DNA of 64,000 bases from Pedobacter sp. L105 (GTDB taxonomy: Bacteria; Bacteroidota; Bacteroidia; Sphingobacteriales; Sphingobacteriaceae), in the NCBI RefSeq assembly GCF_009765875.1, contig NZ_LMUP01000007.1, positions 1-64,000 on the forward strand, given 5' to 3'. A program made the translations under genes and the position numbers. Every line of letters starts with the position of its first letter. Position 1 is the first letter of the stretch. Shown piece by piece: positions 34,586 to 62,700 of the stretch. The notes under the pieces are model-generated. The model was not told where the DNA came from. It searched no databases and saw nothing but the letters and a program-made list of their open reading frames with translations.

Positions 34586-35617
34586 ATGATCACGCTACAA
34601 CACATTACCAAAACTTTCCATCAAAAAAACAGGACCGTAACAGCCTTATCGGATGTTTCCCTGCATGTTGCCGAAGGGAAAATATTTGGCGTTATCGGTG
34701 CCTCCGGAGCAGGAAAAAGCACACTGATCCGCTGCGTAAACCTATTGGAAACACCTACCTCCGGAGAGGTAATTGTAGACGGGCAGCATTTAACTTCACT
34801 TTCCAGAACAGCGCTGGCAAAAGCCAGAAGACATATCGGCATGATCTTTCAGCATTTCAATTTGTTATCCTCCAGGACGGTTTTTGAAAATATAGCCTTC
34901 TCGCTGGAGTTGGACCATGTACCTAAAGAAGAGATCAAAAAAAGGGTAAAGGAATTACTGGCTTTAGTAGGACTGGAAGAAAAATATAACGATTATCCTG
35001 TTAGTTTATCCGGAGGACAAAAACAAAGGGTGGCCATTGCGCGTACCTTAGCGAGTAATCCCAAAGTTTTGTTATGTGACGAAGCCACCAGTGCGCTGGA
35101 CCCGGCTACTACCCATGCTATCCTCCAGTTATTAAAAGATATCAATCAGCGTTTAAACATTACCATTTTACTCATTACCCATGAGATGAATGTGGTAAAG
35201 ACAATTTGCGATGAAGTGGCAGTGATCAGTGAGGGAAAACTGATTGAGCAGGGACCTGTAAGCACGATTTTTTCACACCCAAAAACAGACCTGGCCAGGC
35301 AATTTATCAGTTCTTCACTGAAGATCGATGTTCCGGCAGCTTACCAGCGACGGCTTTCTGCCCTGCGTTCTGAAGGAAAGCGGCCATTGCTAAAACTTGA
35401 ATTTACGGGACAGTCGGTTGATGATCCTGTATTTTCTGAAGTAGCTACCTTGTTCCAGGTACAGAACAATATTATCAGTGCACAGCTTGACTATGCCGGT
35501 GAGGTGAAATTTGGCGTGATCCTGACTGAAGTATCGGCCACACCAGAAAACCATGAAAAAGCAATCTTATTTTATGAACAAAAAAATATTAAAACGGAGG
35601 TATTAGGTTATGTCTGA
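34586..35617 (+). CDS. metN: Methionine ABC transporter, ATP-binding protein
   Basis: A 343-residue ABC ATPase with Walker A (GASGAGKST, about 36-44), Q loop ([15 protein letters not shown]), signature ([13 protein letters not shown]), Walker B ([12 protein letters not shown]) and switch His (LLITHEMN). A C-terminal NIL domain (about 265-343) is the methionine-sensing regulatory domain characteristic of MetN. With MetI and MetQ it imports methionine. metI overlaps its end by 8 bases. Confidence 0.95.
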
Positions 35618-36266
35618 AGCAATGATCTGGATGCTGATCCACGGCACACTGGAAACTATACTAATGACTTTTGCAGCCGGCTTTTTTGGTTTCGTAATTG
35701 GTTTACCCGCCGGCGTATTTCTCTTTATTACGCGTGACGGGCAGATCATGGAAAATAAATCAATGAACCGCCTTTTATCGGTTATTGTAAATATTTTCCG
35801 TTCTATTCCTTTTATCATCCTGATCGTATGGATGATCCCTTTTACCAGGGCATTGGTAGGTACTTCCATTGGCGTAGAGGCAGCCCTTGTGCCCTTAAGT
35901 ATTGGTGCCGCCCCTTTTATTGCCCGAATGATAGAAAACAGCTTACTGGAAATCCCTTATGGATTAATAGAAGCAGCAAGGGCGATGGGTGCAAAACCCT
36001 ACCAGATCGTAGTTAAAGTATTATTGCCCGAAGCGCTACCCGCTATTATCAATAGTGCATCGATTACGCTGATCACCCTTGTGGGCTATTCTGCCATGGG
36101 CGGTGCTGTAGGCGCAGGAGGATTAGGACAAATAGGTTACCAGTATGGCTATGTAGGTTACGACGTAGTGGTGATGAATACCGTATTGGTATTGCTGGTA
36201 GCGCTGGTGTTTTTTATCCAGTTTTTTGGAGACCTGATCTCAAAATTAACAGACCATAGAAAATAA
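35610..36266 (+). CDS. metI: Methionine ABC transporter, permease
   Basis: A 218-residue permease with five membrane helices and the EAA-type coupling loop [24 protein letters not shown], typical of MetI. The start overlaps metN by 8 bases and metQ follows after 2 bases, so the three are translated from one mRNA. Length and topology are normal for the family. Confidence 0.95.
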
Positions 36267-36268
36267 GA

Positions 36269-37093
36269 ATGATAGCAATCCATATGAAACTTTTAGCAAA
36301 AATGACCGTTGTTGCCGGATCACTGCTCATCCTGAGCTGTGCAGGCAAATCAAAAAGGAACAACCCCAATCACCTTATCGTAGGCGTAGAATCCGGACCG
36401 GAATACAATATGGCACTGGTAGCACAAAAAGTAGCCAAGGATAAATACGGACTGGATGTGGAACTGGTGCAGTTCAATGATTATGTGATGCCCAATGAAG
36501 CTTTAAACCAGGGGGATATTGAGGTAAATGCTTATCAGAACAAACCTTATCTCGATGTGCAGGCTAAACAGCGTGGTTATAAATTTGCCATTGCAGGTAA
36601 TACTTTTGTTTATCCTATAGCGGGTTATTCGAAAAAAATAAAAAGCATTGACCAGCTAAAGGATGAAAGCACAGTGATCATTCCAAACGACCCTACCAAT
36701 AGCGGCAGGTCATTATTATTACTGCAAAAGGCAGGATTGTTAAAATTGAAAGATAATGTGGGCTTATTCCCTACCATCAATGATATCACGGCTAATCCTA
36801 AGAACTTAAAAATTGTTGAAATGGAAGCCCCTCAGCTCCCACGTTCGCTTGACGATGCGAAGGTGAGCATTGCTATTATCAACAATACTTTCGCCACTCC
36901 TGCAGGTTTAATTGCTTCCCGCGATGGACTGTTTGTAGAGGATAAACAATCACCCTATGTAAACATCATTGTTTCAAGAGAAGACAACAAAAACGAAGAG
37001 AAAATAAAGAAATTTGTTAAAGCTTATGAATCGCCCGAAGTAGAGGCAGCTGCCCTGAAAGAATTTAAAGGGGGTGCGATAAAAGGCTGGTAA
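36269..37093 (+). CDS. metQ: Methionine-binding lipoprotein
   Basis: A 274-residue NlpA/MetQ-type substrate-binding lipoprotein: signal with lipobox LLILSC, then the NlpA fold (LIVGVESGPEYNMA, VELVQFNDYVMPNEALNQGDIEVNAYQ, YPIAGYSKKIKSIDQL, IPNDPTNSGRSL). A second ATG at 36284 (MKLLAK) is an equally good start for the signal peptide. It hands methionine to MetNI. Last gene of the operon, closed by a terminator at 37108. Confidence 0.94.
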   Translation: MIAIHMKLLAKMTVVAGSLLILSCAGKSKRNNPNHLIVGVESGPEYNMALVAQKVAKDKYGLDVELVQFNDYVMPNEALNQGDIEVNAYQNKPYLDVQAKQRGYKFAIAGNTFVYPIAGYSKKIKSIDQLKDESTVIIPNDPTNSGRSLLLLQKAGLLKLKDNVGLFPTINDITANPKNLKIVEMEAPQLPRSLDDAKVSIAIINNTFATPAGLIASRDGLFVEDKQSPYVNIIVSREDNKNEEKIKKFVKAYESPEVEAAALKEFKGGAIKGW

Positions 37094-37107
37094 TTCAACA
37101 GAAAAAC

Positions 37108-37144
37108 AGAAAGGCCAGATCATTAACATTGATTCGGCCTTTCT
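37108..37144. terminator. Bidirectional terminator between metQ and the LLM gene
   Basis: Arms AGAAAGGCC and GGCCTTTCT (perfect 9 bp), with an inner weak stem, followed by ATTTTA on the plus strand and by TGTTTTTC on the minus strand. It lies between convergent genes. Confidence 0.7.
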
Positions 37145-37161
37145 ATTTTAATAAATACCTG

Positions 37162-38178
37162 TTAACCAATAACCGCTGCAGAGAAACGTTCCATTTCTTC
37201 CAACTGAGGACTGCATTGCAGCAGGAAAAAATTAACACCAGCTTTTTCAAATTCTCCGATCCTGTCCTGTACCTGATTTGGCGTACCAATCAATCCTGAA
37301 CGCAAACCACGGTTTGAAACCGAATAATCTTCCAGTGAAACCTGTTGTTCCAATTGTGTGCCTGCCAGCCATTGCTGGTAGTTCTTATAACCTGAGCTGC
37401 TTGCTTTCACATCAGTTATCCTGGCCAGTTCTTTCTTAACTTCCTGTTCGGAATCCCTGATCACGCTATAGGCAGCTACGCCAAACTGCATTGGGGGCAG
37501 GTTCTTTTTATCCCTGCGCTCACTCAGGTCGCTGATGCGTTCTGCGATCTTTCCAGGGCTATCGCCATGCATTACATAACCGTCAGACGTAGTAGAGATC
37601 AGGTCTTTCGCCGCTTCAGATTCTCCACCGGCATAAATCCGCGGCCTCGGATGACCAATAGGTTTAGGCTGCAGGATATTTTCTTTCACCTGATAATACT
37701 TGCCATCAAAACTAAAATTATCTTTTTTCCAGACATTATCCAGTACCTCCAGCCATTCGGCGGTACGCGCATACCTGTCATCGTGCTGCTCAAATTTAAC
37801 CCCGTACTTCTCGGCCTCATCCTGCCACCAGGAAGAAACTACATTTAACGACAAACGGCCGCTGCTGATGTGATCTATATTTGCAGCCTGCTTTGCCAGT
37901 AATGCCGGATTATGGAAAGTTGGCCTTACAGCCACCATCAGCTCCTGCTTATGCGTAACTGCTGCCATTGCCGCTGCTGTAGACCATGCATCCAGTGAAG
38001 GGGCATATTCTCCTTTAATATCGTTTAAATTTAGCTCGGCAATCAACGCCAGGTCGAACCCTATTTCTTCACTTCTGATTGCCAGCTTTTTCACGTAATC
38101 CCAGCTGGCTTCCATATTTTCATTTTCAACATTTCTTAACCAGCCTCCAAAAACCGGTACCCAATATCCGTATCTCAT
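37162..38178 (-). CDS. LLM-class flavin-dependent monooxygenase, SsuD/SfnG-like
   Basis: A 338-residue bacterial-luciferase-like TIM barrel. Landmarks are YGYWVPVFGGWLR at the N-terminus, TIDHISSGRLSLNVVSSWW equivalent (NIDHISSGRLSLNVVSSW), HDDRYARTAEWLEVL and PRPRIYAGGESEAA. These match FMNH2-dependent monooxygenases that release sulfite from alkanesulfonates (SsuD) or act on dimethyl sulfone (SfnG). Exact substrate cannot be told. It is co-transcribed with an ATP-grasp gene 3 bases upstream, under a sulfur-type motif, which supports a role in using organosulfur compounds. Confidence 0.8.
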   Translation of the reverse strand: MRYGYWVPVFGGWLRNVENENMEASWDYVKKLAIRSEEIGFDLALIAELNLNDIKGEYAPSLDAWSTAAAMAAVTHKQELMVAVRPTFHNPALLAKQAANIDHISSGRLSLNVVSSWWQDEAEKYGVKFEQHDDRYARTAEWLEVLDNVWKKDNFSFDGKYYQVKENILQPKPIGHPRPRIYAGGESEAAKDLISTTSDGYVMHGDSPGKIAERISDLSERRDKKNLPPMQFGVAAYSVIRDSEQEVKKELARITDVKASSSGYKNYQQWLAGTQLEQQVSLEDYSVSNRGLRSGLIGTPNQVQDRIGEFEKAGVNFFLLQCSPQLEEMERFSAAVIG

Positions 38179-49201: not shown

Positions 49202-50578
49202 TTACTTCAGATCGGGTATTGGAAAAATATATCCTCCAAATAAAACATACGACCATAATAGTGTCCAGAAGATATTAAATATCTGTGCAATAATAAAAGT
49301 ATAGGCAGGTCTTCCTCCCTGCAATTTTACCAGGTCAGAAAATCTGGCTTCCATCCCAATACAAATAAAAGCCATTCCGAACCAAACCGTCCTTAAACTA
49401 TTCAGCACTGTACTTACCCCTTTAACCGTTCCCGGAGAAAGTAAAAAAGAAAAGATTAAGGAAGCAGCAATAAAACCCAGCACAAATTTAGGGAACCTTT
49501 CCCATACGATTTTTAAACTTGGCTTTCCTGCATTGATTTGTAAACTGCCTTCTTTGGCTGTAACGTTTGTCTTTTTATAAGCCCACCAAATAGAGATAAA
49601 AAAGGCAGTTACCCCGATAAATACATTTTGAGAGAACTTAGCGATTACACCTGCTTTCACAGCTGCAGGCCCAACCAGCTGTCCGGCTGCTGTAACAGAA
49701 GCGGTAGTATCTAAAGTACCGCCCAGCCAGGCGCCACCTACAATTTCCGGAATATGTAAAACCCTGATGATCCAGGGCTGAATGATCATCATCGGTATAG
49801 CCATGAGCAGTACCAGTGTTGTAACATAAGATAGTTTTTTCTTATCTCCATTGATCGCACCGGCCGCTACAATAGCTGCCGATACCCCACAGATCGATAC
49901 GGCAGAAGCCAGTATGACCCCAAACTCATCATCTACTTTCAGCCTTCTGCTCAACCATAAAGAGAAAAACCAGACTGCTGTAACCACAATAACCGCTTGT
50001 ATAATCCCCGGCAGACCGGCTGTAACCAGATCGGCAGATAAGATGGTGGTACCCAATATCACCAATCCGGTTTTAATATAAAATTCTGAGCGTACAGCTT
50101 CTTTTAACCATCGGGGAAGCGTGGTTAAATTACCTATCAGCAATCCAATCAGTAAAGCAAATACCACATATTCCAAACCGTAATAAGCAACGCCTTTATT
50201 ACCTCCTACAATGAATGAAATAATTACAAGCGTATAAACAAAGGCAAAACCTGCTGCAAATCTTTTGATATTACCACCTGATAAGGCGATGGAGACAGCC
50301 GCCAGGAACAGGAATACCAGACCCGTTTCCACGATCAGCAGGAGGTTATCCAGGGAAAGTATTTTACCAAACAGTTCATCCGTACCGCTCCATTTGAAGG
50401 CCGGTAAGTGAAAAACAACACCTTTGTCCGTAAACCACAAAACGAAAGAGATAATGAGTGCGCCGAGAATAACTGCCCACCAGTCTTCGGTCAGGGAATT
50501 GAAAAAAGGTTTTTTAACCGGCGACACCTCCGCCTCAGATTCAGCCAGCGCTGCCTCAAGATTAATATTTTCTGCCAT
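49202..50578 (-). CDS. YeiH-type putative sulfate exporter
   Basis: A 458-residue membrane protein with about eleven helices. The motifs GAVTLLI-like (GLLIGNLTTLPRWLKEAVRSEFYIKTGLVILGTT), CGVSAAIVAAGAI and GGTLDTTASVTAAGQLVG identify the UPF0324/YeiH (putative sulfate exporter) family. A 50-residue charged tail precedes the first helix. The substrate is unproven. A sulfur-type palindrome lies about 100 bases upstream, in agreement with a role in sulfur handling. Confidence 0.85.
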   Translation of the reverse strand: MAENINLEAALAESEAEVSPVKKPFFNSLTEDWWAVILGALIISFVLWFTDKGVVFHLPAFKWSGTDELFGKILSLDNLLLIVETGLVFLFLAAVSIALSGGNIKRFAAGFAFVYTLVIISFIVGGNKGVAYYGLEYVVFALLIGLLIGNLTTLPRWLKEAVRSEFYIKTGLVILGTTILSADLVTAGLPGIIQAVIVVTAVWFFSLWLSRRLKVDDEFGVILASAVSICGVSAAIVAAGAINGDKKKLSYVTTLVLLMAIPMMIIQPWIIRVLHIPEIVGGAWLGGTLDTTASVTAAGQLVGPAAVKAGVIAKFSQNVFIGVTAFFISIWWAYKKTNVTAKEGSLQINAGKPSLKIVWERFPKFVLGFIAASLIFSFLLSPGTVKGVSTVLNSLRTVWFGMAFICIGMEARFSDLVKLQGGRPAYTFIIAQIFNIFWTLLWSYVLFGGYIFPIPDLK

Positions 50579-50827: not shown

Positions 50828-52381
50828 TTACCATCCTGGATTCTGGCTGAGCTTTCCGTTACTGTTATCAATCTCCTGCTGCGGTATAGGATAGAGATAA
50901 AACTTACCTTTTGCCCCCTTGCTTACATTGGTTTTTCCTACCTTCAGTAAGCTGGTTTCCAAAATGCCATTTCCGGCAGCGTCTTTTTCCCTGATCAGGT
51001 CAAACCAGCGCTGGTATTCAAAAACCAGTTCCAGTCTTCTTTCCAGGTAAACAGCATCCCTGAAATCGGCCTGGGTTAATCCGGATAGTCCTGTTAATCC
51101 CGCACGGGTCCTTACCCTGTTAATTGAAGTATAAGCTTTGCCCGTTGGTCCGTTAAGTTCGTTTTCTGCTTCAGCATGGATCAGCAGAATTTCAGCGAAC
51201 CTGATGATAGGTACATTCGCCCCCGACTCACTTTCATTGGAAGCCACAGACGGATCATAATATTTATTAAAAAAGGGAATTGAATCATTAGGAATACTGG
51301 CGTCATTCAGCTTACCATAGTATAAATTGGTGCTGGGGCTTAAAAAACGGGTTACAAAGCTTCCCCTCTTTCTTTTGTCGTTCGCTGTATAAAGCTTATA
51401 AATACTAAAAAACTTATCGGTACCGCCTGGTTTTGTGGCATCAGGAACAGAATAAAACACTACCTGATTGGCATAATTGCCCTGTACTCCCGGTATACCG
51501 GTATATACAGACCGGGGAGCTTCATCGTTCCCCTGCCCTCCGGAATTGGATTTAAACTGTGCAGAAAAAATATGCTCTTTACCATTTTCGGAAGCCGGTA
51601 AAAAAACATCGGCATAATTGCTGAACAAATCATAACCATAAGGGCCGTTGATCACTGCTTCGGCCTGTGTAACTGCAAGAGCCCATTTTCGTTCAGTAAG
51701 GTAAACCTTAGCCAGCAGTGCATTGGCAGCCCCTGCAGTCGCCCTGCCCAGGTCGGCCGCAGCATAACTGTTCGGCAGATCTACCACTGCTGCTGCCAGA
51801 TCGGCTTCTATCTGCGTATAAACCGCCGCCACAGGAGTCCTGGCTATCTGCTGATCAGACAGATTGATCGAATTCAGGGAATGCAGTACCAGGGGTACAT
51901 CGCCATACAGGCGCACCAGGTTAAAATAATATAATGCCCTTAAAAACCTGGCTTCTGCCACCAGTCTTTTATTCAGGGTGGCGTCAAAAGTGATATGGGG
52001 TATGGTGTCAATAGCAATATTTGCTTTTTTAATGGCGGCATAATGCTGCTGCCATAACTGCAATACGCGCAGTCCGGTAGAGGAATGACCTAATACCGCC
52101 TGAGAGCGTACATCCGGATTAGTAGCGCCTGGCCCGGGACCTACATCATCGGCCATAAAATCCATTCCGGTATTAAGCAGTATATTATAGGGGGTCTGCA
52201 CACCGGTAGAACCTGCGTTTAGCAATGAATAAACTGCATTTACAGCAGCCACTGCATCCGCCTGTGTTTTATAGAACTGATCGGACGGTATAAAAGACCG
52301 TGGATTTTCATCCAGTTTGGCGCAGGAAGCTGCAGAAAACGCAATCAGTAGAAGTATGTATATCTTATTCTTTATCAGCAT
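50828..52381 (-). CDS. SusD/RagB outer-membrane lipoprotein, set 1
   Basis: A 517-residue SusD-like protein with lipobox AFSAASC (Cys20). TPR-like helices (EARFLRALYYFNLVRLYGDVPLVL at about 135-160) and the C-terminal NRVRTRAGL and LELVFEYQRWFDLIRE motifs are typical. It forms a lid on the SusC barrel encoded directly upstream (23-base gap) and binds the nutrient. Substrate unknown; surrounding genes point to a sulfur compound. Confidence 0.92.
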   Translation of the reverse strand: MLIKNKIYILLLIAFSAASCAKLDENPRSFIPSDQFYKTQADAVAAVNAVYSLLNAGSTGVQTPYNILLNTGMDFMADDVGPGPGATNPDVRSQAVLGHSSTGLRVLQLWQQHYAAIKKANIAIDTIPHITFDATLNKRLVAEARFLRALYYFNLVRLYGDVPLVLHSLNSINLSDQQIARTPVAAVYTQIEADLAAAVVDLPNSYAAADLGRATAGAANALLAKVYLTERKWALAVTQAEAVINGPYGYDLFSNYADVFLPASENGKEHIFSAQFKSNSGGQGNDEAPRSVYTGIPGVQGNYANQVVFYSVPDATKPGGTDKFFSIYKLYTANDKRKRGSFVTRFLSPSTNLYYGKLNDASIPNDSIPFFNKYYDPSVASNESESGANVPIIRFAEILLIHAEAENELNGPTGKAYTSINRVRTRAGLTGLSGLTQADFRDAVYLERRLELVFEYQRWFDLIREKDAAGNGILETSLLKVGKTNVSKGAKGKFYLYPIPQQEIDNSNGKLSQNPGW

Positions 52382-52404: not shown

Positions 52405-55400
52405 TTATAAGGTGATGCCTATTCCGGCAATCAACGATCTGTAATTCGGATAAGCACCATTGTCTACACCCGCACCAATAGCAGATTGCTCATTACTGCT
52501 TACCTCCGGATCATAACCTGTATATTTAGTCCAGGTAACCAGGTTTTGAGCATTCAGATAGATCCGGATTTTTTTGAAGGGCGAGCGGGAAAGTACCGAC
52601 TGAGGGAAAGTATAACCCACACTCAGGCTTTTTAACCTCAGATAAGAACCATCCTCAATAAAGCGGTCGGATATCGTTGCCGCTGGGTCCTGGAAAGCAC
52701 TGTGTACATCTGTATTGGTATTGGTTGCCGTATAGCGATTCAGTAAAGTGGTAGTGGCATTGGTATAACCCGTTCCCAGTTCCAGTGTAGCCCGCTGGGC
52801 ATTGTAAATCTTATTGCCATAAGAAGTTTGCAAAAATACACTCAGATCAATATTTTTATAAGTAAAAGTGTTGGTGATTCCGCCCGTAAACTTAGGCTGG
52901 GCATTTCCCAGGATTACCCTATCGCCTGCCTGAGTGATTTTCCCGTCATGGTTAATATCCTCATAGGCCTGTCCACCCACAGCGGTATTGGCAGCAGGTG
53001 TCAACGCGACAGTACCCGGCTGGATCAACCCATTGGTTTTATAGCCAATAAAAGATCCTATAGGCTCACCTACCCTGATAATGGAAGGGGAAGAAGAGTC
53101 TGGTATAAATTGAGTGATCCCATTACCGCCCAAACTCAAAACTTTATTCCTGTTCACGGCGAACACAATGCCTGTATTCCAGGTGAAAGCCCCGGTAAGA
53201 TTTTTTGTATTTAAATTTAACTCGAACCCTTTATTCTGCACCGACCCAACATTTTCATACTGCTGTGCATTGGTGATGGAAGAATTGGTGATAATGGTTA
53301 AGCCGCTGGTAGAAGGTAATGGCACGTAAAGCAGCAGATTGGTTGTTTTCTTGTAATACACATCGGCGGTTAGCGTGATCCTGTCTTTTAATATACCTAA
53401 ATCGAAACCCAGATCATACTGTGCGGTCTTTTCCCAGGTCAGGTTTGGGTTAGCCAAACTGTTTGGGGCAAAACCAGATACCGTTGCATTCCCAAAATTA
53501 TAGCGGTAATAACCTAACTGCGAGTATGACTGATAAGCAGGAATATCACTGTTGCCCGTCTGTCCGGCACTAACCCTTAATTTCAACTGACTGATCTGTT
53601 CTACATTTTTCAGGAAACTTTCACTCGAAGCATTCCAGGCAAAAGCTGCCGATGGAAAAGAAGCCCATTGGTGACCGGAGGCAAATTTGGAAGATCCATC
53701 TGCACGCAAGGTTAAAGTAACCAGGTATTTACTATCAAAACCATAATTAACACGTGCCAGATAAGACTTCAGTGCCCAGCTATTTGAGATGGACGAAGGC
53801 GCCGGGGCAAATCCGCTGGCAGAAACAGAAGTGACACTGCCAGAACCCAGGTTATTGTAGCTATCGTAATCACTTACAAATCCTGATGAACCTGTAACTG
53901 AACCTTCACCCCTAAACACCTGCTGGGTAAAACCACCCAGGATATTCAGTGAATGACGACCGAATTTTTTGGTATAGGTCAAGGTATTTTCATTCAGCCA
54001 GTTGGTAGAATATAGTGCTCCGGTTTCACCCAGGCCATTATATCCTGCACCTTCATACACTGTGGCCGGTAAATACCTGTTTTGTTTATTATCGATAATA
54101 TCAATGCCTGCCAGTACCCTTGCGGTCAGTTCATTGGTGATCTTATAATCACCCGAAATATTACCCAGCACACGGTTTGTAGTGGTGGTATTGATTTGAT
54201 TGTACAACGTATTGATCGGGTTGCCATAGGTTCCTTCAAAAATATCTTTGATAAAGAAAGAGCCATTTGCATTGTATACAGGCGTTACCGGTGTCATCAG
54301 CAAAATAGCCGGCACTACACCTGCAGGTGCTACCTGTGCGGTGGTATGGCTTCCGGTGATATAAGAAGAAATCTTTAATCGATCATTATAGTCATGTTCT
54401 ACATTTACCCGACCGGCATAACGCTTAAAATTAGTGTTCTGCAAAATACCATCCTGGTCGAAATAATTTCCTGAAAAAGCCAGCCTTGTTTTGTCTGTTC
54501 CAGAAAGAATGGATAAACTATGGTTCTGGGTATTTCCGGTACGGAAAGCTGCATCCTGCCAGTTGGTATCGCTATGATAAGGATTGAGCACTGCATCGGT
54601 CTGGGTTGGTTTGCCCGTATTGACCAGTGCATCATTTCTCAGGTCTTCCCATTGCTGGGTATCCAGCAGGGGGATGGTCTTGATGATCTTCTGATCTCCA
54701 TAACTGCCGTCATAATTGATAGAAGAAACCCCTGCCCTGCCTTTTTTTGTGGTAATAATAATTACGCCGTTGGCACCGCGTGTTCCGTAGATAGCGGTGG
54801 CTGATGCATCTTTTAGCACTTCAATACTTTCTATATCCGAAGGATTAATAGAAGCCAGCGGATTGATCTTTGGTCCGTTGGTTACTCCTGCATCGTTCAG
54901 TGAATTGCTGTTTGAGGTAGGAAAACCATCAATTACATATAAGGGTTCTGCTACGGCATTAATAGAGTTTACCCCACGGATCTGCACAGTAACGCCTGCT
55001 CCGGGCTGTCCTGTGGCCTGGGTTACCTGGATACCAGAAACAGTACCCTGCAAAGCCCTGTCGAGAGACAAAGTGGATTGCTTTAAAGCCAATGCCGGAA
55101 CTGACGCTACGGAACCGGTGATATCTTTTCGTTTCACCGATCCATAACCTACTACTACCACCTGGTTGAGCTGGCTCTGATCTTTAAGTGCAATCTCCAC
55201 AGGACTGCCTGTTGCGGTAAACTCCTGCTTTTCATAACCGATAAAACTGACGATCAGTGTATAAGGAAATTTTTGTCCGGTTACAAAACTGAACTTGCCT
55301 TCAATATCAGTTTGCACCATATGGGTAGTACCTTCAATACGCACCACAGCACCTGGCAAAGGTTCTTTAGTGGTACCATCAATTACACGGCCTACCAGTT

Positions 55401-55488
55401 TAGAGTTTATAATTGGCTGTGTTTGCTGGGCAAAAACAGTTAGCATCCGGATAAAAATAAATATAGAAATGAGTATCAGTTTTTTCAT
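52405..55488 (-). CDS. SusC/RagA TonB-dependent transporter, set 1
   Basis: A 1027-residue SusC-type receptor. Signal peptide, carboxypeptidase-regulatory-like domain (VIDGTTKEPLPGAVVRIEGT), the TonB-box region VVVGYGSVKRKDITGSV, plug with ATAIYGTRGANGVIIITTK, and a barrel. It imports a ligand captured by the SusD partner. Its ATG overlaps the stop of a 40-codon upstream frame (ATGA). Structured leader sequence lies upstream but no SAM element. Confidence 0.93.
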   Translation of the reverse strand: MKKLILISIFIFIRMLTVFAQQTQPIINSKLVGRVIDGTTKEPLPGAVVRIEGTTHMVQTDIEGKFSFVTGQKFPYTLIVSFIGYEKQEFTATGSPVEIALKDQSQLNQVVVVGYGSVKRKDITGSVASVPALALKQSTLSLDRALQGTVSGIQVTQATGQPGAGVTVQIRGVNSINAVAEPLYVIDGFPTSNSNSLNDAGVTNGPKINPLASINPSDIESIEVLKDASATAIYGTRGANGVIIITTKKGRAGVSSINYDGSYGDQKIIKTIPLLDTQQWEDLRNDALVNTGKPTQTDAVLNPYHSDTNWQDAAFRTGNTQNHSLSILSGTDKTRLAFSGNYFDQDGILQNTNFKRYAGRVNVEHDYNDRLKISSYITGSHTTAQVAPAGVVPAILLMTPVTPVYNANGSFFIKDIFEGTYGNPINTLYNQINTTTTNRVLGNISGDYKITNELTARVLAGIDIIDNKQNRYLPATVYEGAGYNGLGETGALYSTNWLNENTLTYTKKFGRHSLNILGGFTQQVFRGEGSVTGSSGFVSDYDSYNNLGSGSVTSVSASGFAPAPSSISNSWALKSYLARVNYGFDSKYLVTLTLRADGSSKFASGHQWASFPSAAFAWNASSESFLKNVEQISQLKLRVSAGQTGNSDIPAYQSYSQLGYYRYNFGNATVSGFAPNSLANPNLTWEKTAQYDLGFDLGILKDRITLTADVYYKKTTNLLLYVPLPSTSGLTIITNSSITNAQQYENVGSVQNKGFELNLNTKNLTGAFTWNTGIVFAVNRNKVLSLGGNGITQFIPDSSSPSIIRVGEPIGSFIGYKTNGLIQPGTVALTPAANTAVGGQAYEDINHDGKITQAGDRVILGNAQPKFTGGITNTFTYKNIDLSVFLQTSYGNKIYNAQRATLELGTGYTNATTTLLNRYTATNTNTDVHSAFQDPAATISDRFIEDGSYLRLKSLSVGYTFPQSVLSRSPFKKIRIYLNAQNLVTWTKYTGYDPEVSSNEQSAIGAGVDNGAYPNYRSLIAGIGITL

Positions 55489-55770: not shown

Positions 55771-56757
55771 TTAAGCCCCGGCGTTGTAGTTATCTGATCT
55801 GTATTGATGGTAAGTTAAAGGATGTGTATCCTGATCTTCTTTAACGGAGTCCTGTACTTTAGGACGGTATAACTGATGGTCCTGTAAAGGCACATCGGCT
55901 TTCACCAGCGGGCCATCTGCTGCCAGCTCACTACCTGCTACTTTTGATTTAAAAATGGGCCACAGCAGCTGTGCATACCATTGATCGCCTTCATAGTGAG
56001 ATATGCCATAAGCTGCCGGATACTGACGGGAGATATGCGCTGTACCAAAAATAACATCCCATAAAAAGAACATATTGCCAAAGTTCCCTTTATAATAACC
56101 CACACCGTCATCCGTAGTCGCTGCATGATGTGCATGGTGGGTAGCAGGTGTAGAAATAGTACGTTCCAGTACCCAGGCCAGCGGATGAAGTATTTTATAT
56201 TGATAAAAAGGTTTGTCCCATGGAATACTGGAATGCGCCAGTGTAGTGATGGTGCCTTTGATGGCCCTGACAGCGATGGCAGGGATACCCAGGCCCAAAT
56301 AAACCAGGGCGGTTGTTAAATAGGTTTGTGAAAAGAACAAGCTATAAATCAGATTTTGTCTGCTGGCCATCGCCATTCCCATATAGGAAGCAGAATGATG
56401 TGTCCTGTGGAAACGCCACAACCATGGCACTTCATGGTGCAGGCGGTGGTACCAGTACTGGGTAAGGTCATCGGCCACGGCAATGATGATAAATCCCCAG
56501 AAAAAGGGCACCCAGTCGAAACTGTTTTTTAAATCGGGCAGCAGTGCCGGTAGAACTTTAAGTCCGTAGTAAGCTACTACTGGCCTGATCACCAATCGGG
56601 GAATGGTAAAACAGGCAATATCCACCCACTTTTCATTTTTATTCCAGTGGTTTTTATACAATCCAAAGGAGAACTCGAGTATGCCGAGTACGAGTACTAA
56701 AACAGAAAAGCCGTAGCCATTCAGGTTTTCTATTACTTTGTTTATCAGTTCAATCAT
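55771..56757 (-). CDS. Sterol desaturase/fatty acid hydroxylase family protein
   Basis: A 328-residue membrane di-iron enzyme. Histidine clusters HRLHHEVPWLWRFHRTHHS (HxxHH and HxxHH) and the later THHAHHAATTDD are the metal ligands of the fatty acid hydroxylase superfamily; hydrophobic helices occupy residues 15-100 and 150-190. It hydroxylates or desaturates a lipid in the membrane. Bacteroidota make sulfonolipids, and the operon's cysteine-type leader would fit a step in them, but this is inference. Confidence 0.88.
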   Translation of the reverse strand: MIELINKVIENLNGYGFSVLVLVLGILEFSFGLYKNHWNKNEKWVDIACFTIPRLVIRPVVAYYGLKVLPALLPDLKNSFDWVPFFWGFIIIAVADDLTQYWYHRLHHEVPWLWRFHRTHHSASYMGMAMASRQNLIYSLFFSQTYLTTALVYLGLGIPAIAVRAIKGTITTLAHSSIPWDKPFYQYKILHPLAWVLERTISTPATHHAHHAATTDDGVGYYKGNFGNMFFLWDVIFGTAHISRQYPAAYGISHYEGDQWYAQLLWPIFKSKVAGSELAADGPLVKADVPLQDHQLYRPKVQDSVKEDQDTHPLTYHQYRSDNYNAGA

Positions 56758-56768: not shown

Positions 56769-56957
56769 TTAAGGATTAACAGGTTTGGTTTTTGTGGAAG
56801 CCCGGGATACTTTCTGTGGTTCTTTTTTCTTCTCCCAGGGCCGCTGTCCGGTAAAATAAAATGTTCCAAACATCAGTAAAATGGGTAGTGCATAGAGCAG
56901 CAGGCTGAGCAGCGCATTTCTTACAATTCTGGCTTGTGTAGCTTCTTCTATTTTCAT
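56769..56957 (-). CDS. Small membrane protein 62 aa, hydroxylase operon
   Basis: One hydrophobic helix at about 14-36 (LLSLLLYALPILLMFGTFYF) followed by a basic tail (KKKEPQKVSRASTKTK). Start ATG overlaps the stop of the preceding 57-aa gene by 4 bases, and the hydroxylase follows after 11 bases. Function unknown; possibly a subunit. Confidence 0.6.
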   Translation of the reverse strand: MKIEEATQARIVRNALLSLLLYALPILLMFGTFYFTGQRPWEKKKEPQKVSRASTKTKPVNP

Positions 56958-57127
56958 GAGCGGGTTGCTTTAGGTTGATTAATGGACTGCGGATCCGGTT
57001 CATGATGCTCAGAAAGTAACTTCTCGGTAAGCCACAAACCTCCGAAGATGATGATGAAAGGGATAGTGGTGATAATGATACCTACCAAAATCTTTTTCCC
57101 CAGCAGGGATACGTCGTTAATGGTCAT
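56954..57127 (-). CDS. Small membrane protein 57 aa, hydroxylase operon
   Basis: A short gene from the ATG at 57127 to a TGA overlapping the next ATG. One helix IIITTIPFIIIFGGLWLTEKLL (about 17-38) and a Pro/His-rich tail. The composition and the ATGA overlaps with the next gene support translation. It is similar in layout to the 62-aa neighbour; both may pair with the hydroxylase. No family known to me. Confidence 0.6.
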   Translation of the reverse strand: MTINDVSLLGKKILVGIIITTIPFIIIFGGLWLTEKLLSEHHEPDPQSINQPKATRS

Positions 57128-57276
57128 AAGAGTTTAAAAATTAAATGTAAATTATAGGTCAAGACCAATCATTGCGTTAAAACGCCTGATCAATGGGATG
57201 GATGAATATTTGAGGATGGATATCGCCTGAAAGGCAATAAATACTATAAAGAAGGGATCACCTGTTTATAGCTGAA

Positions 57277-57369
57277 TTAACAGCAACAACAACAGTGGAT
57301 GGCAGGGATAAAATCAGCCGAAAACCGGCGGGAAACAAATGAAGAGGAGACGTTAAATTCGGTATACAT
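57277..57369 (-). CDS. Cysteine-rich leader peptide, 30 aa (ends Cys x5)
   Basis: ATG at 57369, TAA at 57277-57279. The peptide begins MYTEFNVSSSF and ends in HCCCCC just before the stop, from codons TGT TGT TGT TGC TGT. It lies 149 bases upstream of the hydroxylase operon. Such a run of one amino acid at the end of a short frame is the classical design of a leader peptide whose translation stalls when charged tRNA-Cys is scarce and changes folding of the downstream mRNA. Confidence 0.6.
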   Translation of the reverse strand: MYTEFNVSSSFVSRRFSADFIPAIHCCCCC

Positions 57370-57430
57370 TTTTTGTTCTTTAGGACATTTAAATCTGTAA
57401 TGATCGATAACTGAGGGCAATATACAAATT

Positions 57431-57471
57431 ATTTTAATAAAGTCCACTATTTTGATAGACTTTATTAAAAT
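57431..57471 (-). promoter_or_regulatory. Long palindrome with sulfur-type motif
   Basis: Perfect 14-bp arms ATTTTAATAAAGTC/GACTTTATTAAAAT with a 13-base spacer; the centre CCACTATTTTGATAG (57444-57458) is a copy of the motif found at 34324. It is 62 bases upstream of the leader peptide. Confidence 0.55.
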
Positions 57472-57572: not shown

Positions 57573-59006
57573 TTAATTTACATCAAACCACAGTTTAGTA
57601 GTTAACAGATCAGCACCCTGGTGGGCCACTGCTGCTTTGTAATTATCCGGGTTGAGGGATTGTTCAGTTCCAGGGTAAATAAACCTTACAGGGATAACAC
57701 CATTCAGCGCTCCTGCTGCAGCTGGTTTTAAGATGGGATAATCCAGTCTTCTCCATTCTGCAAAAGCTTCCAGCCCTTCACCAAATAAGGCGATCCATTT
57801 TTGATTACCAATAGACTTCTTGTAATTGGCAGCGTCATACTGCACTGCGGGCAGTGCCTGGTAAGTGGCAATATCTGTACTGGATATTCCATACTGCGAC
57901 AAAGAAGCGGCAACGGCATCATTATAAAGCGTAGCTGCATTTTCTGAGGTAAAACCTCTTGCTGCTGCTTCTGCACGGTCAAACAATACTTCTGCATAAC
58001 TGATGATCACTGCTGGTGCTGCCGGAGCGGTAAAATAGGTACCAGGTTTAGAGGTCCTGGTTAAACCCAGGGCCGCAGCGTCACCTGTCAGCAGGCCATT
58101 TGGAACACCCGTATACAGTTGTGTATCTACGGCTTTATTGGCATATACCGGAAGACGGGGATCATTTAATGCTGCCAGCTGATCAACTATCGTTTTACTG
58201 ATGCGGTAATCATCCCTGGTATCAAACAGATTACTAATTGGATTTTGATTTGGGGATGCCTGATAAACCAGCTGTGCAGTTTCACTGTTCGAACCGATAT
58301 AAGCACCGCCTTCGGCTTGTACCGCTGCAATTGTCTGTGCAGCAAGGGTCGGCTCACGGTCGGCAATTCGCAGGGCAACCCTTAAACGTAAGGAATTGGC
58401 CAGTTTTTTCCAAGAGGCGATATTATTGCTATAAATAACGTCGCCACCAATCGCTTTACCTGTAGTACTCAAAGCATCCTGTGCAGTTTTCAGATCTGCC
58501 AGTACGCCCAGGTAAACATCCCTTTGGTTGTCATATTTCGGCAGCAGATAAGTATCTATGCTTCCGGCCTGTGAATACGGTACATCACCATAGGCATCAG
58601 TAAGCAAAGTAAAGATCCAGGATCTTAAAACCAGGGCTACACCTTTGTAATTAGGGTTCGACTGTGCATCTGCCAGTTTAATGATCTGGTTCAGGTTAAC
58701 GATACCGGTGGCATAACCTATAGACCACAGGTCCTGAAAACTTGCATTGGTCTCGATGTATCTGTCGGGATCGGTATACTGGATCTTCGCCCAGTGCTGC
58801 ACAAAAAGCAGACTGGAATTCATGTTATTGGTGGTGCCCCAGTACGTATCTGAGGTAGCCTTAATAGCGGCAGTTAGCAGGTAATCAGGTTGTGCGGTTT
58901 GGGAAGCATTGGGATTTACATTGCTTTCATCCAGCGATTTCTTGCAGGAAACGGTGCTTAGCAGTAAAACTCCGGATAAGAATATGGATATATAATTGAT
59001 CTTCAT
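57573..59006 (-). CDS. SusD-like nutrient-binding lipoprotein, set 2
   Basis: A 477-residue protein of the SusD-like_2 type: lipobox VLLLSTVSC (Cys21), then SNVNPNASQTAQPDYLLTAAI, LWSIGYATGIVNLNQII and LRVALRIADREP. It binds the nutrient for the paired SusC barrel, whose gene lies 4 bases upstream. Regulated with it by a SAM riboswitch, so the nutrient is probably methionine-related or another organosulfur compound. Confidence 0.9.
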   Translation of the reverse strand: MKINYISIFLSGVLLLSTVSCKKSLDESNVNPNASQTAQPDYLLTAAIKATSDTYWGTTNNMNSSLLFVQHWAKIQYTDPDRYIETNASFQDLWSIGYATGIVNLNQIIKLADAQSNPNYKGVALVLRSWIFTLLTDAYGDVPYSQAGSIDTYLLPKYDNQRDVYLGVLADLKTAQDALSTTGKAIGGDVIYSNNIASWKKLANSLRLRVALRIADREPTLAAQTIAAVQAEGGAYIGSNSETAQLVYQASPNQNPISNLFDTRDDYRISKTIVDQLAALNDPRLPVYANKAVDTQLYTGVPNGLLTGDAAALGLTRTSKPGTYFTAPAAPAVIISYAEVLFDRAEAAARGFTSENAATLYNDAVAASLSQYGISSTDIATYQALPAVQYDAANYKKSIGNQKWIALFGEGLEAFAEWRRLDYPILKPAAAGALNGVIPVRFIYPGTEQSLNPDNYKAAVAHQGADLLTTKLWFDVN

Positions 59007-59010: not shown

Positions 59011-62000
59011 TTAAAATTTAAGGTTAATATTGAAACCGAATGTGCGTACAGTTGGGAGCGCTAAATCTTCCAGTCCTTGCCCGTTACCGGTGTTAAAAGC
59101 CGTCTCCGGATCTATATTAGGTACTTCTTTGTGGATGATCAGCAGATTCCTTCCCACCAGGGAAACAGTTGCACTTTGAAGTCCTGAACCTTTTATCCAG
59201 CGCTGAGGCAAATTGTAACCCAATTTCACCTCTCTCAGTTTCACATAAGTAGCATTGTAAACAAAGGCTTCATCGGCATTGTAAATTCCTTTGTAATACT
59301 CCTGGGCAGGAATAATTGTGCTGTTTGCGGTACCATCTGCCAATACGCCTTTAAAGATCATTCCGTCATCATAAACTGTTGCCCCGCCCGGAGCAGTTGC
59401 ACCGGCAGCTATTTTTACCGCTTTGTTGGCACTGCTGTTTCCAGGATAATAATAACTTATACCTCCATTTTCAGTTCCGCGGCCCGGAAGGGTTGTTTTT
59501 AACACCCCCGTATAAGTTCCTGTTTCGTTGGTACCAGAGAAGATCTTACCACCTACGTGTGCATCTACCAATACGCTCAGGTTAAACCTTTTATAGGTAA
59601 AACTGTTGGTGATGCCCCCTATCCAGTCGGGTGTATATTTTCCCAGTACTTTTTTAGATGCACTGATAGACGGTGTTCCGTCTGCACTGACAATAATATT
59701 TCCGGAAGCATCCCTGGCATAGGCGGTTCCGAAAATTGTACCATAAGACTGTCCCACAGAAGCCAGTACCTGAACTGTTCCGTCAGTACCCAGTACATAA
59801 CTCTGAATATTTCCATACAGCGATTTCACCCTGCTTTTATTCGATGAAAAATTGGTGTTGATATCCCAGGTAAAATCTTTTGTTTTAATCGGGGTGATAC
59901 CTAATTGTGTTTCCAGTCCTTTGTTATTGATCGTACCGCCATTCACTAACTTCTGGCTATAACCAGTAGACGTGCTGACATCCAGGTTTAAGATCTGGTT
60001 GATACTATTGGTATTGTATACACTGAAATCAAACCTCACCCTGTTTTTAAAAAGGCCCAGTTCAAAACCTGCTTCAGTAGAATTGGTAGTTTCAGGTTTC
60101 AGATTGGCGTTGAGGTCTACAGCATTTGAATATTGTTGTGGATTGCCGTTAAATGGTGCGATAAATCCGTAGGTATTGATCAGCTGGTAAGGTGTAGCAT
60201 CTTTACCAACTTTAGACCAGCCGCCTCGCAGTTTTGCAAAGCTTAACACATCACTTTTGATATCAAATAATTCTGAAAGGATTAAACTTCCGTTAACAGA
60301 AGGGTAAAAATAAGAGCGGTTTGCCGCGGGCAAAGTAGACGACCAATCGTTCCGGGCAGTCAGGTTTAAATAAGCATAATTCCTGAAACCCAATTGTGCA
60401 GAGCTAAACGTACTGTAAACTTTTTGCTTGGTATAAATATTAGAAGAGATCAAGGGATCCCTTGAATTGCTCAGCGTATATAAACCATTTACAGCCAGTT
60501 TAGGGGCCTTCTGATCATTGTCTTCAAACGTGGTGGTACGAATATTTCCACCCAGTAATACATCCAGATTAAAATCACTGTTCAGCTTTTTCGTATAGTC
60601 CAGTCTTCCTTCTGTATTGTTTTCATTGAAGGTATAGGTATCCTCCTCATAAGAACCATAAGGTGTTCCATTAGTTCCGTAAGCAATTCTGATCTTCCTG
60701 CGGTCGGTATAATTATCATTACCCGTTCTGAAATTTGCAGATAAACCATCAATGATCTTATAGTTTAATTCCACATTACCAATCAGACGGTCGCGCACCT
60801 GCCCTACCGTATTTTCATAGGCCATGAAGTAAGGGTTACTGTAATAATTATTATTCCAGTTGATCACACTTCCGTCGGCAGCGGTATAATTCCTTAACTG
60901 CGGAATATCTACCTGTCTGCCCGACCAGATAAACTGCAACATGGTACTGCTTGCCCTTTTGCCACCGGAACCCGGCAGGTTATCCGCACTGCTGTTTACA
61001 TAGTTGGCAAAAGCATTTAGCGTTAGTTTAGGCGTTATTTTATAACTTGAACTAAACAGGAAAGAGTTTTTTGATTGCGATGAATTAGGGATCACACCTT
61101 TCTGATCGAGATTATTGTAAGACAGGCGGTAATCAAACTTATCTGTTGCACCAGCAAACGAAATCCCATTATTCAAGGTGCGCCCCGTATTAAAGAAATC
61201 GCGCACGTTATCCGGATGTGCAACAAAAGGTACAGCTACCCCATTGGAATAATATTGTGGGATCAATTGTCCGTTGAGGCGTGGTCCCCAGCTTTCATCT
61301 ACCCCATCATTTACCCCACCACCTTTACCATCTACATAACTGAACTGGCCATTAGAACCCTGGCCATAGGAGTTTTGATAATCAGGCAAAACGAGCAGGG
61401 TAGAAAAAGTAGTATTTGAATTTACGCTGATCCCTAAACCTTTAACATTTTTACCTTTTTTAGTCGTGATCAGCACCACACCCGCTGCTGCGCGGGAGCC
61501 GTAAAGTGCCGCTGCATTGGGCCCTTTTAATACACTGATAGATTCTATATCTTCAGAATTGATATCGGAAATGGTATTGGCAAAATCCCTTGATCCGGCG
61601 GTACCGAGATTTTGTGTATTGTCCACAGGTACACCGTCGATCACAAATAAGGGTTGGTTATTTCCCGAAATAGAGGTCTCTCCCCGAATAATAATTCTTG
61701 AAGAGCCCATATCGCCCTGGCTGCTGGTTACCTGTACACCGGCAACTTTACCGGTCAATGCGTTTACCAGATTAACCTCCTTGGCTTCTGAAATATCTGC
61801 CGATTTCAATTCCTGAACGGCATAACCCAGGGACTTTTTTTCTTTTGTAATGTTTAAGGCAGTAACCACCACTTCATCCAGCGCATTCTGTGCTTCGTCC
61901 AGGCTGATATTCAGCGTAGAAGTTTCACCTGATACTTTGATTTCCTGTGTGGTATAACCAATAAAAACTACCCTTAGTATATCATCGGTTTTCGCGTTTA

Positions 62001-62193
62001 AACTAAACCTCCCATCGGTGTTGGTCTGGGCGCCAATAGTTGAACCTTTAATGGAGATACTTACTCCGGGAATAGGCTTTCCGCTGGACTTTTCGGTGAC
62101 CACACCGGCTACTTTTATGGTTTGCGCAGTAGCGGACTGCAGGATAAAAAGGGACAAGAGTAGCCCTAGTATAGGTTTGTACAATTTTAACAT
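59011..62193 (-). CDS. SusC/RagA TonB-dependent transporter, set 2
   Basis: A 1060-residue SusC-type receptor. Start chosen at the ATG at 62193 (MLKLYKPILGLLLSLFIL), which opens directly into the signal peptide; the frame runs on to an upstream ATG at 62280 without signal features. Then a carboxypeptidase-like domain (VVTEKSSGKPIPGVSISIKG), TonB-box/plug VVVTALNITKEKKSLGYAV, ALYGSRAAAGVVLITTK and a barrel. Expression is governed by a SAM-I riboswitch 375 bases upstream plus a Cys-containing leader peptide. Confidence 0.93.
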   Translation of the reverse strand: MLKLYKPILGLLLSLFILQSATAQTIKVAGVVTEKSSGKPIPGVSISIKGSTIGAQTNTDGRFSLNAKTDDILRVVFIGYTTQEIKVSGETSTLNISLDEAQNALDEVVVTALNITKEKKSLGYAVQELKSADISEAKEVNLVNALTGKVAGVQVTSSQGDMGSSRIIIRGETSISGNNQPLFVIDGVPVDNTQNLGTAGSRDFANTISDINSEDIESISVLKGPNAAALYGSRAAAGVVLITTKKGKNVKGLGISVNSNTTFSTLLVLPDYQNSYGQGSNGQFSYVDGKGGGVNDGVDESWGPRLNGQLIPQYYSNGVAVPFVAHPDNVRDFFNTGRTLNNGISFAGATDKFDYRLSYNNLDQKGVIPNSSQSKNSFLFSSSYKITPKLTLNAFANYVNSSADNLPGSGGKRASSTMLQFIWSGRQVDIPQLRNYTAADGSVINWNNNYYSNPYFMAYENTVGQVRDRLIGNVELNYKIIDGLSANFRTGNDNYTDRRKIRIAYGTNGTPYGSYEEDTYTFNENNTEGRLDYTKKLNSDFNLDVLLGGNIRTTTFEDNDQKAPKLAVNGLYTLSNSRDPLISSNIYTKQKVYSTFSSAQLGFRNYAYLNLTARNDWSSTLPAANRSYFYPSVNGSLILSELFDIKSDVLSFAKLRGGWSKVGKDATPYQLINTYGFIAPFNGNPQQYSNAVDLNANLKPETTNSTEAGFELGLFKNRVRFDFSVYNTNSINQILNLDVSTSTGYSQKLVNGGTINNKGLETQLGITPIKTKDFTWDINTNFSSNKSRVKSLYGNIQSYVLGTDGTVQVLASVGQSYGTIFGTAYARDASGNIIVSADGTPSISASKKVLGKYTPDWIGGITNSFTYKRFNLSVLVDAHVGGKIFSGTNETGTYTGVLKTTLPGRGTENGGISYYYPGNSSANKAVKIAAGATAPGGATVYDDGMIFKGVLADGTANSTIIPAQEYYKGIYNADEAFVYNATYVKLREVKLGYNLPQRWIKGSGLQSATVSLVGRNLLIIHKEVPNIDPETAFNTGNGQGLEDLALPTVRTFGFNINLKF

Positions 62194-62333
62194 AGTGATT
62201 GGGTTAATTACCCGTTTGCTCATAGTAAACCCACAGGCCCGTATTGATTGCTCAATGGCAGCAAGCCTGGAACTCAACATGAATGAGTAATAGTGAAAAT
62301 TTTAATTAATTTTTTCCGGTACGGAGGGGATTG

Positions 62334-62438
62334 TTATTTACAACACCAGCAACTCATCGCAGAACTGATTAAACTGTTCATTTTCTGAGGTGGGGCGTTG
62401 AAATAACTCGTGTCTGATTGCGTAAATTTTAATTCCAT
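62334..62438 (-). CDS. Cys-containing leader peptide, 34 aa (ends CWCCK)
   Basis: ATG at 62438, TAA at 62334-62336, between the SAM-I riboswitch and the SusC gene. The peptide starts MELKFTQSDTSYF and ends SCWCCK. Its stop is 140 bases before the SusC start, nearly the same distance as in the other leader peptide. Downstream mRNA can form a nested stem (CAGGC...GCCTG with TTGCT/AGCAA inside), a plausible attenuator. Confidence 0.55.
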   Translation of the reverse strand: MELKFTQSDTSYFNAPPQKMNSLISSAMSCWCCK

Positions 62439-62568
62439 TAATTGCTCTTTAATTGGTGGTTTATAAATCAATTATTAGTTCTGATTATACTTCTTTAAGA
62501 AGTTAATACCGATACAGAAATCCTGAAGAAATAAATGACAATTGATACACTGGTGAGCGAATCTATCA

Positions 62569-62670
62569 CTTATCTTTCCGCTATTGCGGATAGGAGTTAG
62601 CACCTTTTACCGTTGGTTGTACAGGTTGCTAAGACTTCAAAGGGCCTTTCCCTCAGTCTTTCTGGATAAG
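62569..62670 (-). ncRNA. SAM-I (S-box) riboswitch
   Basis: Read on the minus strand: 5' CTTATC pairs with 3' GATAAG (P1); the conserved core CTGAGGGAAAGGCCC, TGAAGTCTTAGCAACC and AAGGTGCTAACTCC appear in order, followed by the short hairpin TCCGCAATAGCGGA. All S-box hallmarks are present. It binds S-adenosylmethionine and shuts down the downstream mRNA, here the SusC/SusD set 2 (ATG 375 bases away). Confidence 0.95.
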
Positions 62671-62700
62671 TAGAAAATCAATGAACGTTTAATTGTTCTG

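Follow-up and report, generated by a model that had tools for sequence, protein, structure and literature searches.

The window, by which we mean the whole 64,000-nt stretch of Pedobacter sp. L105 DNA analysed here, carries on its minus strand a short open reading frame (ORF) ending in five consecutive Cys codons at the head of a hydroxylase operon. The features on both sides of it, listed in the direction of the minus strand, are as follows.

62567 to 62672, minus strand: SAM riboswitch (RF00162; 80.4 bits against a gathering threshold of 44.4) heading the neighbouring SusC/SusD pair
62334 to 62438, minus strand: second Cys-rich leader, MELKFTQSDTSYFNAPPQKMNSLISSAMSCWCCK followed by a stop, between the SAM riboswitch and SusC (translation)
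59011 to 62280, minus strand: SusC-type receptor behind the riboswitch and second leader (sequence features; the true start may lie downstream of 62280)
57573 to 59006, minus strand: SusD-like lipoprotein (PF12771, Pfam)
57432 to 57470, minus strand: palindrome TTTTAATAAAGTC-TATCAAAATAGTG-GACTTTATTAAAA, a putative operator by its position upstream of the leader
57417 to 57424, minus strand: weak -7-like box TATATTGC, by its position upstream of the leader
57277 to 57369, minus strand: poly-Cys leader ORF, 30 aa, MYTEFNVSSSFVSRRFSADFIPAIHCCCCC followed by a stop (translation; Pedobacter hartonius ortholog; conserved class)
57317 to 57329, minus strand: hairpin GCCGGTTTTCGGC and T-rich tail, terminator-like, lying within the leader ORF 5' of its Cys codons (terminator scan)
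57244 to 57271, minus strand: A+T-rich hairpin, then TATTTATTG, beginning about 5 nt 3' of the leader stop (local fold)
56954 to 57127, minus strand: 57-aa ORF, the first gene 3' of the leader (no Pfam or NCBIfam match; kept in relatives)
56769 to 56957, minus strand: 62-aa ORF (weak YajC-like match, below cut-off)
55771 to 56757, minus strand: hydroxylase, 328 aa (Pfam FA_hydroxylase, PF04116)
52405 to 55488, minus strand: SusC-type TonB-dependent receptor (Pfam), 282 nt 3' of the hydroxylase and probably on the same transcript
50828 to 52381, minus strand: SusD-like lipoprotein after SusC (ORF)
49202 to 50578, minus strand: YeiH-family putative sulfate transporter (PF03601; TIGR00698 below cut-off)

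Read from 57369 to 57277, the leader consists of an ATG start, 30 codons and a TAA stop, with the 3' end TGT TGT TGT TGC TGT TAA; on the plus strand the same interval contains an internal stop. An earlier note on this DNA had described a 30-codon frame with five terminal Cys codons and TAA, leaving the strand unstated, and minus-strand translation bears this out. The spacing it gave was also right, with 149 nt between the leader stop and the next ATG (57127), as was its account of three overlapping or closely spaced genes downstream, the second overlapping the first by 4 nt and the hydroxylase following after 11 nt. The leader does head the hydroxylase operon that the note took to be its target, but the unit is broader and includes SusC/SusD and, in relatives, sulfatases and a sulfatase-maturing enzyme. 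The window's own operon has no adjoining sulfatase, and the only sulfur-related features in the window near the leader were the YeiH-family protein and the nearby SAM riboswitch. Further sulfur genes lie nearby in the window (25666-27358 and 34586-38178). These include ORFs resembling cysteine synthase and serine acetyltransferase, identified by eye, genes for a methionine ABC transporter (MetQ, NCBIfam) and a gene for an LLM monooxygenase whose nearest match, below cut-off, is SfnG.

The Cys-run leader is conserved beyond chance. A CCCC-stop by itself is not unique in the strain's own genome (6.4 Mb), which has eight such sites (reversed pattern, 0), so comparison with relatives decides. The P. 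hartonius leader (L094; MYTNSDASSSLASLRFTADLISDGQCCCCCC followed by a stop) is a clear ortholog, the whole peptide being recognisable with one additional in-frame codon. To cover a wider range, a collection of 84,980 species was scanned with an alignment of seven hydroxylases, giving 299 relatives, the best 80 of which form the named loci. Short ORFs had to begin with ATG, span 10-70 codons, lie outside ORFs of at least 120 aa and carry at least three identical residues within the last five. Among these best 80 of 299 loci, Cys-run ORFs numbered 73 on the operon strand vs 0 on the other, and all non-Cys residues pooled under the same rule gave 27 vs 45. At least one Cys-run leader was present in 64/80 loci by the strict rule; the run is thereby retained in relatives, where its loss had been named beforehand as evidence against the reading.

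The 16/80 negative loci comprised four short contigs missing the full upstream region (L111, L117, L119, L146), three with a looser Cys-rich ORF (L147, L150, L168) and nine in which the upstream region was present and a Cys-run ORF absent (L139, L140, L144, L145, L158, L164, L165, L166, L171). Genera with a leader include Pedobacter, Mucilaginibacter, Olivibacter, Hufsiella, Desertivirga, Chryseolinea, Larkinella, Dyadobacter, Pseudarcicella and Chitinophaga; both Spirosoma loci among the best 80 lacked one. Since many loci are related, these counts are not independent events. Outside P. hartonius, other genera keep mainly the Cys run, the rest of the peptide differing in sequence and in length (from 10 to more than 40 aa, with uncertain start codons). 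Within the own genome, four of the eight CCCC-stop sites were looked at more closely, and two of these are leaders, namely the one in the window and one ahead of a PhyH dioxygenase gene on another contig (C19). At the latter (locus L006; G000:C19:92190-92303, minus strand), the leader MSTELVDITDMATLQNIHISLTMRMPLSQRAMDCCCC, followed by a stop, stands directly ahead of the PhyH-type gene and has a palindrome, TCTACTGAATTAGTAGA, at its start. Of the other own-genome sites, L001 lies opposite a large ORF and L008 has no clear neighbouring gene. Two more CCCC-stop matches were put down to chance: L010, which runs antisense to a larger ORF, and L011, which occupies another frame of a 152-aa ORF.

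The position of the leader was compared with gene order in close hydroxylase relatives (77–84% identity), found in 11 same-genus genomes among 117 other genomes (one relative in two pieces). The gene order of the window occurred in 4/11, all with an upstream poly-Cys run (CCCCC in G060, CCCC in G023 and G013, CCC-Arg in G059). The remaining seven had a SusC-SusD-first order, and in six of these a Cys frame ending SCCC-stop stood ahead of SusC; in the seventh, G040, the contig begins inside SusC. One group has its leaders ahead of the two small ORFs and the hydroxylase, the other has them ahead of SusC, and because the leader precedes SusC once the order is SusC-SusD-hydroxylase, it follows the operon head.

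Same-strand chains around the best 80 of 299 hydroxylases (phmmer, E 1e-10) contained SusC in 66/80, SusD in 67/80, sulfatase in 51/80, formylglycine-generating enzyme (FGE) in 32/80, rhodanese-thioredoxin in 14/80 and YeiH in 2/80. The sulfatase queries included Pfam-confirmed sulfatases, and examples from the chains were confirmed by Pfam (PF00884, PF03781, PF00581 with PF00085, PF03601). A home-made sulfatase motif, found in 9/80 of these loci, was too strict and the phmmer count was used in its place. The simplest reading of this gene content is that the operons would import and break down sulfated or other organosulfur compounds for sulfur. In two Mucilaginibacter loci (L109:6648-6728 and L112:6896-6976), a poly-Cys leader was also seen ahead of a 189-aa gene, a carbonic anhydrase by Pfam in L109.

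The neighbouring SusC/SusD pair in the window carries a different combination. The SAM riboswitch is a known sulfur-metabolite sensor; here the SAM-I riboswitch at 62567-62672 is followed by a Cys-rich leader 150-186 nt later (185-186 nt between the SAM-I-like motif and the Cys frame in the window, 150-157 nt in three Pedobacter relatives). At the position of this second leader, P. caeni, P. steynii and Pedobacter sp. KBW06 have frames ending PMCCCGI-stop or PMCCCSI-stop. Three other SAM-like motifs among the scanned loci (L109, L112, L198) had no Cys frame. The tandem arrangement suggests that two sulfur inputs, the SAM riboswitch and the Cys leader, may act on one transcript.

Cys-run leaders were also found at genes for PAPS reductase, a step of cysteine synthesis itself. 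The PAPS-reductase/CysD survey comprised a first set of 31 genomes (30 loci) and a second set of 40 genomes around G073 (30 loci, G073 included), a member of the same class and another family; the search covered flanks of 1.5 kb and would overlook an operon head lying farther away. One of the 30 loci of the first set, L200 of G073, carries a 7-Cys leader, MTPIKQHHSSIASNRMMCCCCCCC and a stop, whose distance to the PAPS-reductase ORF is 87 nt; TATATTTG lies a short way upstream. Five of the 30 loci around G073 (L279, L280, L200, L284, L285) had a 6-7-Cys leader, with the stop-terminated peptides MTPIKQHHSSIASNRMMCCCCCCC (twice), MNQITHRHSSIAPNGLMCCCCCCC, MTHIKQHHSSITSNGMMYCCCCCC and MTHIKQHHSFIKSAGMMCCFCCCC, and all five genomes (G073, G388, G390, G391, G393) belong to one genus outside the window's family. 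These leaders lie on the strand of the gene, 177-191 nt before the Pfam match, with a box of the form TAnnTTTG, which we take to be the Bacteroidota -7 element, 23-25 nt before the ATG. The other PAPS-reductase loci around G073, among them L283 of G392 (same genus as G073), had no near-gene leader; one distant 3-Cys frame occurred in L218 and the opposite strand had none. The predicted leaders tie the Cys run to cysteine supply in that other genus. In the window's own genus, PAPS-reductase/CysD loci had no Cys leader in the 1.5-kb flanks, so the leader is not a general cysteine-synthesis switch there.

TAnnTTTG was found upstream of 54/74 leaders vs 11.7 expected from shuffles, mostly 100-155 nt before the leader end, and from this distance most leader ATGs are probably not at +1. 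A perfect box was absent at 20/74 leaders, including those of the window and P. hartonius. The core of the operator-like palindrome, AGTCTAT-AAAATAGTGGA, is kept in P. hartonius, and similar palindromes were seen by eye ahead of other leaders. A genome search with the operator motif TCTAYTNAATTARTAGA (up to three mismatches) gave 197/203 vs 237/235 for the reversed-pattern control; in view of this lack of excess we claim no regulon and treat the palindrome only as a lead. One two-mismatch copy, TCTATTAAAATAGTAGT, lies at 34323-34339 (minus strand), upstream of the methionine-transporter genes starting at 34586.

Downstream of the window leader, the first 60 nt after the stop fold more stably than shuffles (z -3.9); the mean z over this interval was -1.5 for hydroxylase-type leaders (n = 23) and +0.3 for SusC-type leaders (n = 29). 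When RNA up to 15 nt past the A-site codon was hidden in the folds, the A+T-rich hairpin was lost with the ribosome on the last Cys codon and retained with it on the first or third. This hairpin is without the G+C stem and U-tract of a terminator. The earlier note had proposed the design of an amino-acid attenuator, which holds in so far as a Cys-run leader heads the operon, but the terminator scan found no classical intrinsic terminator in the gap that separates the window leader from the first gene, the sole terminator-like site of the leader region being 57329-57317 inside the leader ORF (0.5 expected by chance). Terminators were not convincingly enriched after the 74 leaders either. A classical terminator, taken as a hairpin plus U-tract within 250 nt of the stop, was scored for 57/74 leaders (77%) vs 213/370 base-shuffled sequences (58%), many of them in coding sequence, and was discarded as a shared feature. 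The arrangement of trp/his-type attenuators, with an intrinsic terminator between leader and first gene, is thus absent from the window and not clearly present across the 74 leaders. Rho or translational control, as proposed for actinobacteria in the excerpted text of PMC1262725, would be as likely.

The gap between leader and SusC in SusC-type loci holds additional structure. In 25 distinct loci, chosen for the presence of a two-hairpin element, a start-stop mini-ORF (ATG, 1-3 codons and a stop) occurred in 25/25, a few tens of nt 5' of the element. Its forms include MK, MR, MAL, MKL, MNI and MCAK, each followed by a stop, and others; in several loci it reads Met-Cys-stop, and a few Cys leaders end in it, in frame (CCCCPMQ-stop). 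As background, 847/4032 non-coding ATGs (21%) in the best 80 of 299 loci have a stop within four codons. Hairpin A of the element is CCGGCAAGG-AAG-CCTTGCCGG, and stem B pairs GATCAG with CTGATC around GTAACGCCAATCAC, with GACTGCGAATCAC as a second core form; TTTTACTAAC and then the SusC start follow. The core GYAACGCCAATCAC is strongly conserved in most copies. Copies directly before SusC were seen at L107:4829-4987, L116:4741-4909, L154:3388-3554 and about 20 other places.

Across 21 sequences, the two helices had 90.4% paired cells vs 86.8 in shuffled alignments, eight pairs changed on both sides vs a shuffled mean of 3.7 (3/500 as high) and a covariation score of 0.160 vs 0.096 (0/500); the number of further pair types was not raised (14 vs 14.9). 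With the helix partner slid along, at most 46% of cells were paired; this control is biased towards a structure that was drawn from these same sequences. RNAalifold detected hairpin A only, because the alignment shifted stem B, which was tested by name afterwards. Two element-bearing loci, L107 and L116, were compared with Rfam, and the element matched no family up to E 1 in either.

A covariance model of the element, which contains no leader sequence, matched in 14/69 relatives (E 0.01) and 38/301 family genomes (E 1e-4), in most cases with a single match per genome. The own genome is part of both sets, and its match lies 34 kb beyond the window with a leader ending MNIVAPSFSNGCASCCCCCQ-stop before another SusC. 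We counted 39/43 distinct model-found loci, leaving out three already seen and one reverse-strand overlap, and excluded 16 family-scan places. Short ORFs with three or more Cys among their final eight residues occurred in 32/39, a strict Cys leader (three consecutive, no more than two codons before the stop) in 28/39 (mirrored place on the other strand, 0), a mini-ORF in 37/39 and a long ORF directly after the element in 38/39. At least eight of the 39 had been seen before (L188, L232, L233, L235, L236, L238, L240, L245), and others are close relatives of earlier loci. Without these eight, the Cys leader was found in 24/31 (strict, 21/31) and the mini-ORF in 29/31; all seven leader misses by the looser rule and both mini-ORF misses fall among these 31 newly seen loci. 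In the gap after the leader at L048, L050 and L051, a stretch TTAGTAAAA-GAACAG, then ATTGGCGTTG, then CTGTTC resembles by eye the reverse complement of the SusC-type element (TTTTACTAA, AACGCCAAT), and a similar one occurs again 5' of the promoter. The covariance model did not detect this stretch in the named copies of two of those genomes (L115, L124).

We consider it very probable that the 57277-57369 frame is a translated, cysteine-responsive leader peptide heading an operon for sulfur acquisition from organic compounds. Its Cys codons stand at the very end of a short frame and at the head of a sulfur operon, and so have the anatomy of a leader reporting Cys-tRNA supply. Translation of the leader, stalling on Cys-tRNA shortage and the direction of the response are what we infer from this layout: when Cys-tRNA is scarce, ribosomes would pause in the Cys run just before the stop, and the paused ribosome would alter the fate of the RNA directly downstream such that the operon is expressed. 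With plentiful cysteine, ribosomes would pass the run and expression would stay low. The genes so controlled would serve SusC/SusD import, hydroxylation and YeiH transport and, in relatives, the action of sulfatases and FGE.

Other roles for the Cys run were weighed against this one. The run itself is conserved and short Cys-rich peptides adjoin TonB-dependent receptors, as would be expected if the peptide were the product, either a small peptide that binds metal or a precursor from which a modified, exported peptide arises for uptake by SusC. We regard this as very improbable, since the rest of the peptide is unconserved (10 to over 40 aa), no common leader or cleavage region was seen, and the frame stands at operon heads beside sulfatases and FGE or PAPS reductase. 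There is also little to recommend sensing by the nascent chain, in which poly-Cys would bind a metal (copper, zinc, iron) or respond to redox and stall the ribosome by that binding and not via Cys-tRNA. Cysteine clusters can bind metal, and in another bacterium a nascent exported protein is described as controlling copper genes at translation (excerpted text of PMC9973294), but the run abuts the stop codon and would therefore not yet have left the exit tunnel when the decision is made; moreover, sulfur genes and a SAM riboswitch adjoin it, and the residues before the run are unconserved across genera.

It is similarly hard to credit that the TGY runs are a non-coding signal acting at the nucleotide level, as RNA structure or a protein site. 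In several loci the last Cys codons look, by eye, able to pair with a GCAGC-like stretch 3' of the stop. Against this, an in-frame stop lies no more than two codons past 76 of the 95 non-coding runs of (TGY)3 or longer on the operon strand and directly abuts 62 of them, vs 4 and 0 for the other strand (n = 32). Runs interrupted by single other codons (CCTCCCC, CCYCCCC, CCACCCC) also retain frame and stop, and the P. hartonius leader has gained its codon in frame. The cysteine-responsive leader peptide remains our preferred reading. More tentatively, and at somewhat less than even odds, the SusC sulfur operons may carry an undescribed composite 5' region of poly-Cys leader, mini-ORF (ATG, 0-3 codons and a stop) and two-hairpin RNA with the GYAACGCCAATCAC core, in which mini-ORF and RNA would form a second switch (a re-initiation gate or a ligand- or protein-binding RNA) reading the ribosome traffic set by cysteine; sister operons would obtain the same logic by stacking a SAM riboswitch on a Cys leader.

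Polycysteine leaderless ORFs of Mycobacterium smegmatis were reportedly studied by Canestrari et al. in 2020. Unlike those, the Bacteroidota leaders are probably not leaderless. Candidate leaders with runs of Cys codons and no conserved terminators are given for the Mycobacterium cys operon, Propionibacterium acnes and Bifidobacterium longum cbs in the excerpted text of PMC1262725, and experiments on the M. smegmatis polycysteine leaders are cited in the excerpts of PMC13236596, PMC9094748 and PMC9031893. The window leader shares two features of polycysteine leaders, with consecutive Cys codons next to the stop and a position upstream of sulfur/cysteine genes. As far as those excerpts go, the leaders described here resemble the actinobacterial ones as short upstream ORFs with a Cys run near the stop, no conserved terminator and sulfur genes downstream. 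They differ in phylum and in their targets, which are operons for SusC/SusD, the hydroxylase and sulfatases and, in one genus, PAPS reductase, and in that one form stands in tandem with a SAM riboswitch and SusC-type forms add a mini-ORF and a two-hairpin element.

In Rhodobacterales, uORFC-8-2 has two tandem Cys codons, usually at positions 14-15, and lies upstream of cysS with an intrinsic terminator (PMC8632094, excerpted text). It is similar as an upstream ORF with Cys codons and proposed ribosome-mediated attenuation, and the window leader is not a member, having other downstream genes and no terminator in the gap. Leader-peptide attenuators have been suggested in Bacteroidota for Flavobacterium psychrophilum (PMC9723704) and among the sORFs of Bacteroides thetaiotaomicron (PMC7366714); these belong to the same phylum and to 5' regions, and the excerpts of both papers contain no cysteine leaders or sulfatase/SusC targets. 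A search of the open-licence literature on cysteine leaders and sulfur-limited SusC/sulfatase systems returned nothing on a Bacteroidota Cys-run leader among the matches listed. Cysteine leaders are already known elsewhere, and the leader of Bacteroidota sulfur operons would be a variant of them.

SusC/SusD systems are known mostly as carbohydrate importers. The codon-level signal described here singles out a large set of these, frequently accompanied by sulfatases, as probable operons for scavenging sulfur, and the Cys-run tag thereby predicts a substrate class and an inducing condition across several Bacteroidota genera. It also makes ribosome-mediated control readily testable in a phylum for which the excerpts of PMC9723704 and PMC7366714 suggest leader peptides and do not show them acting. 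For operons that lack annotation, the leader would serve as an easy genomic tag for assigning function.
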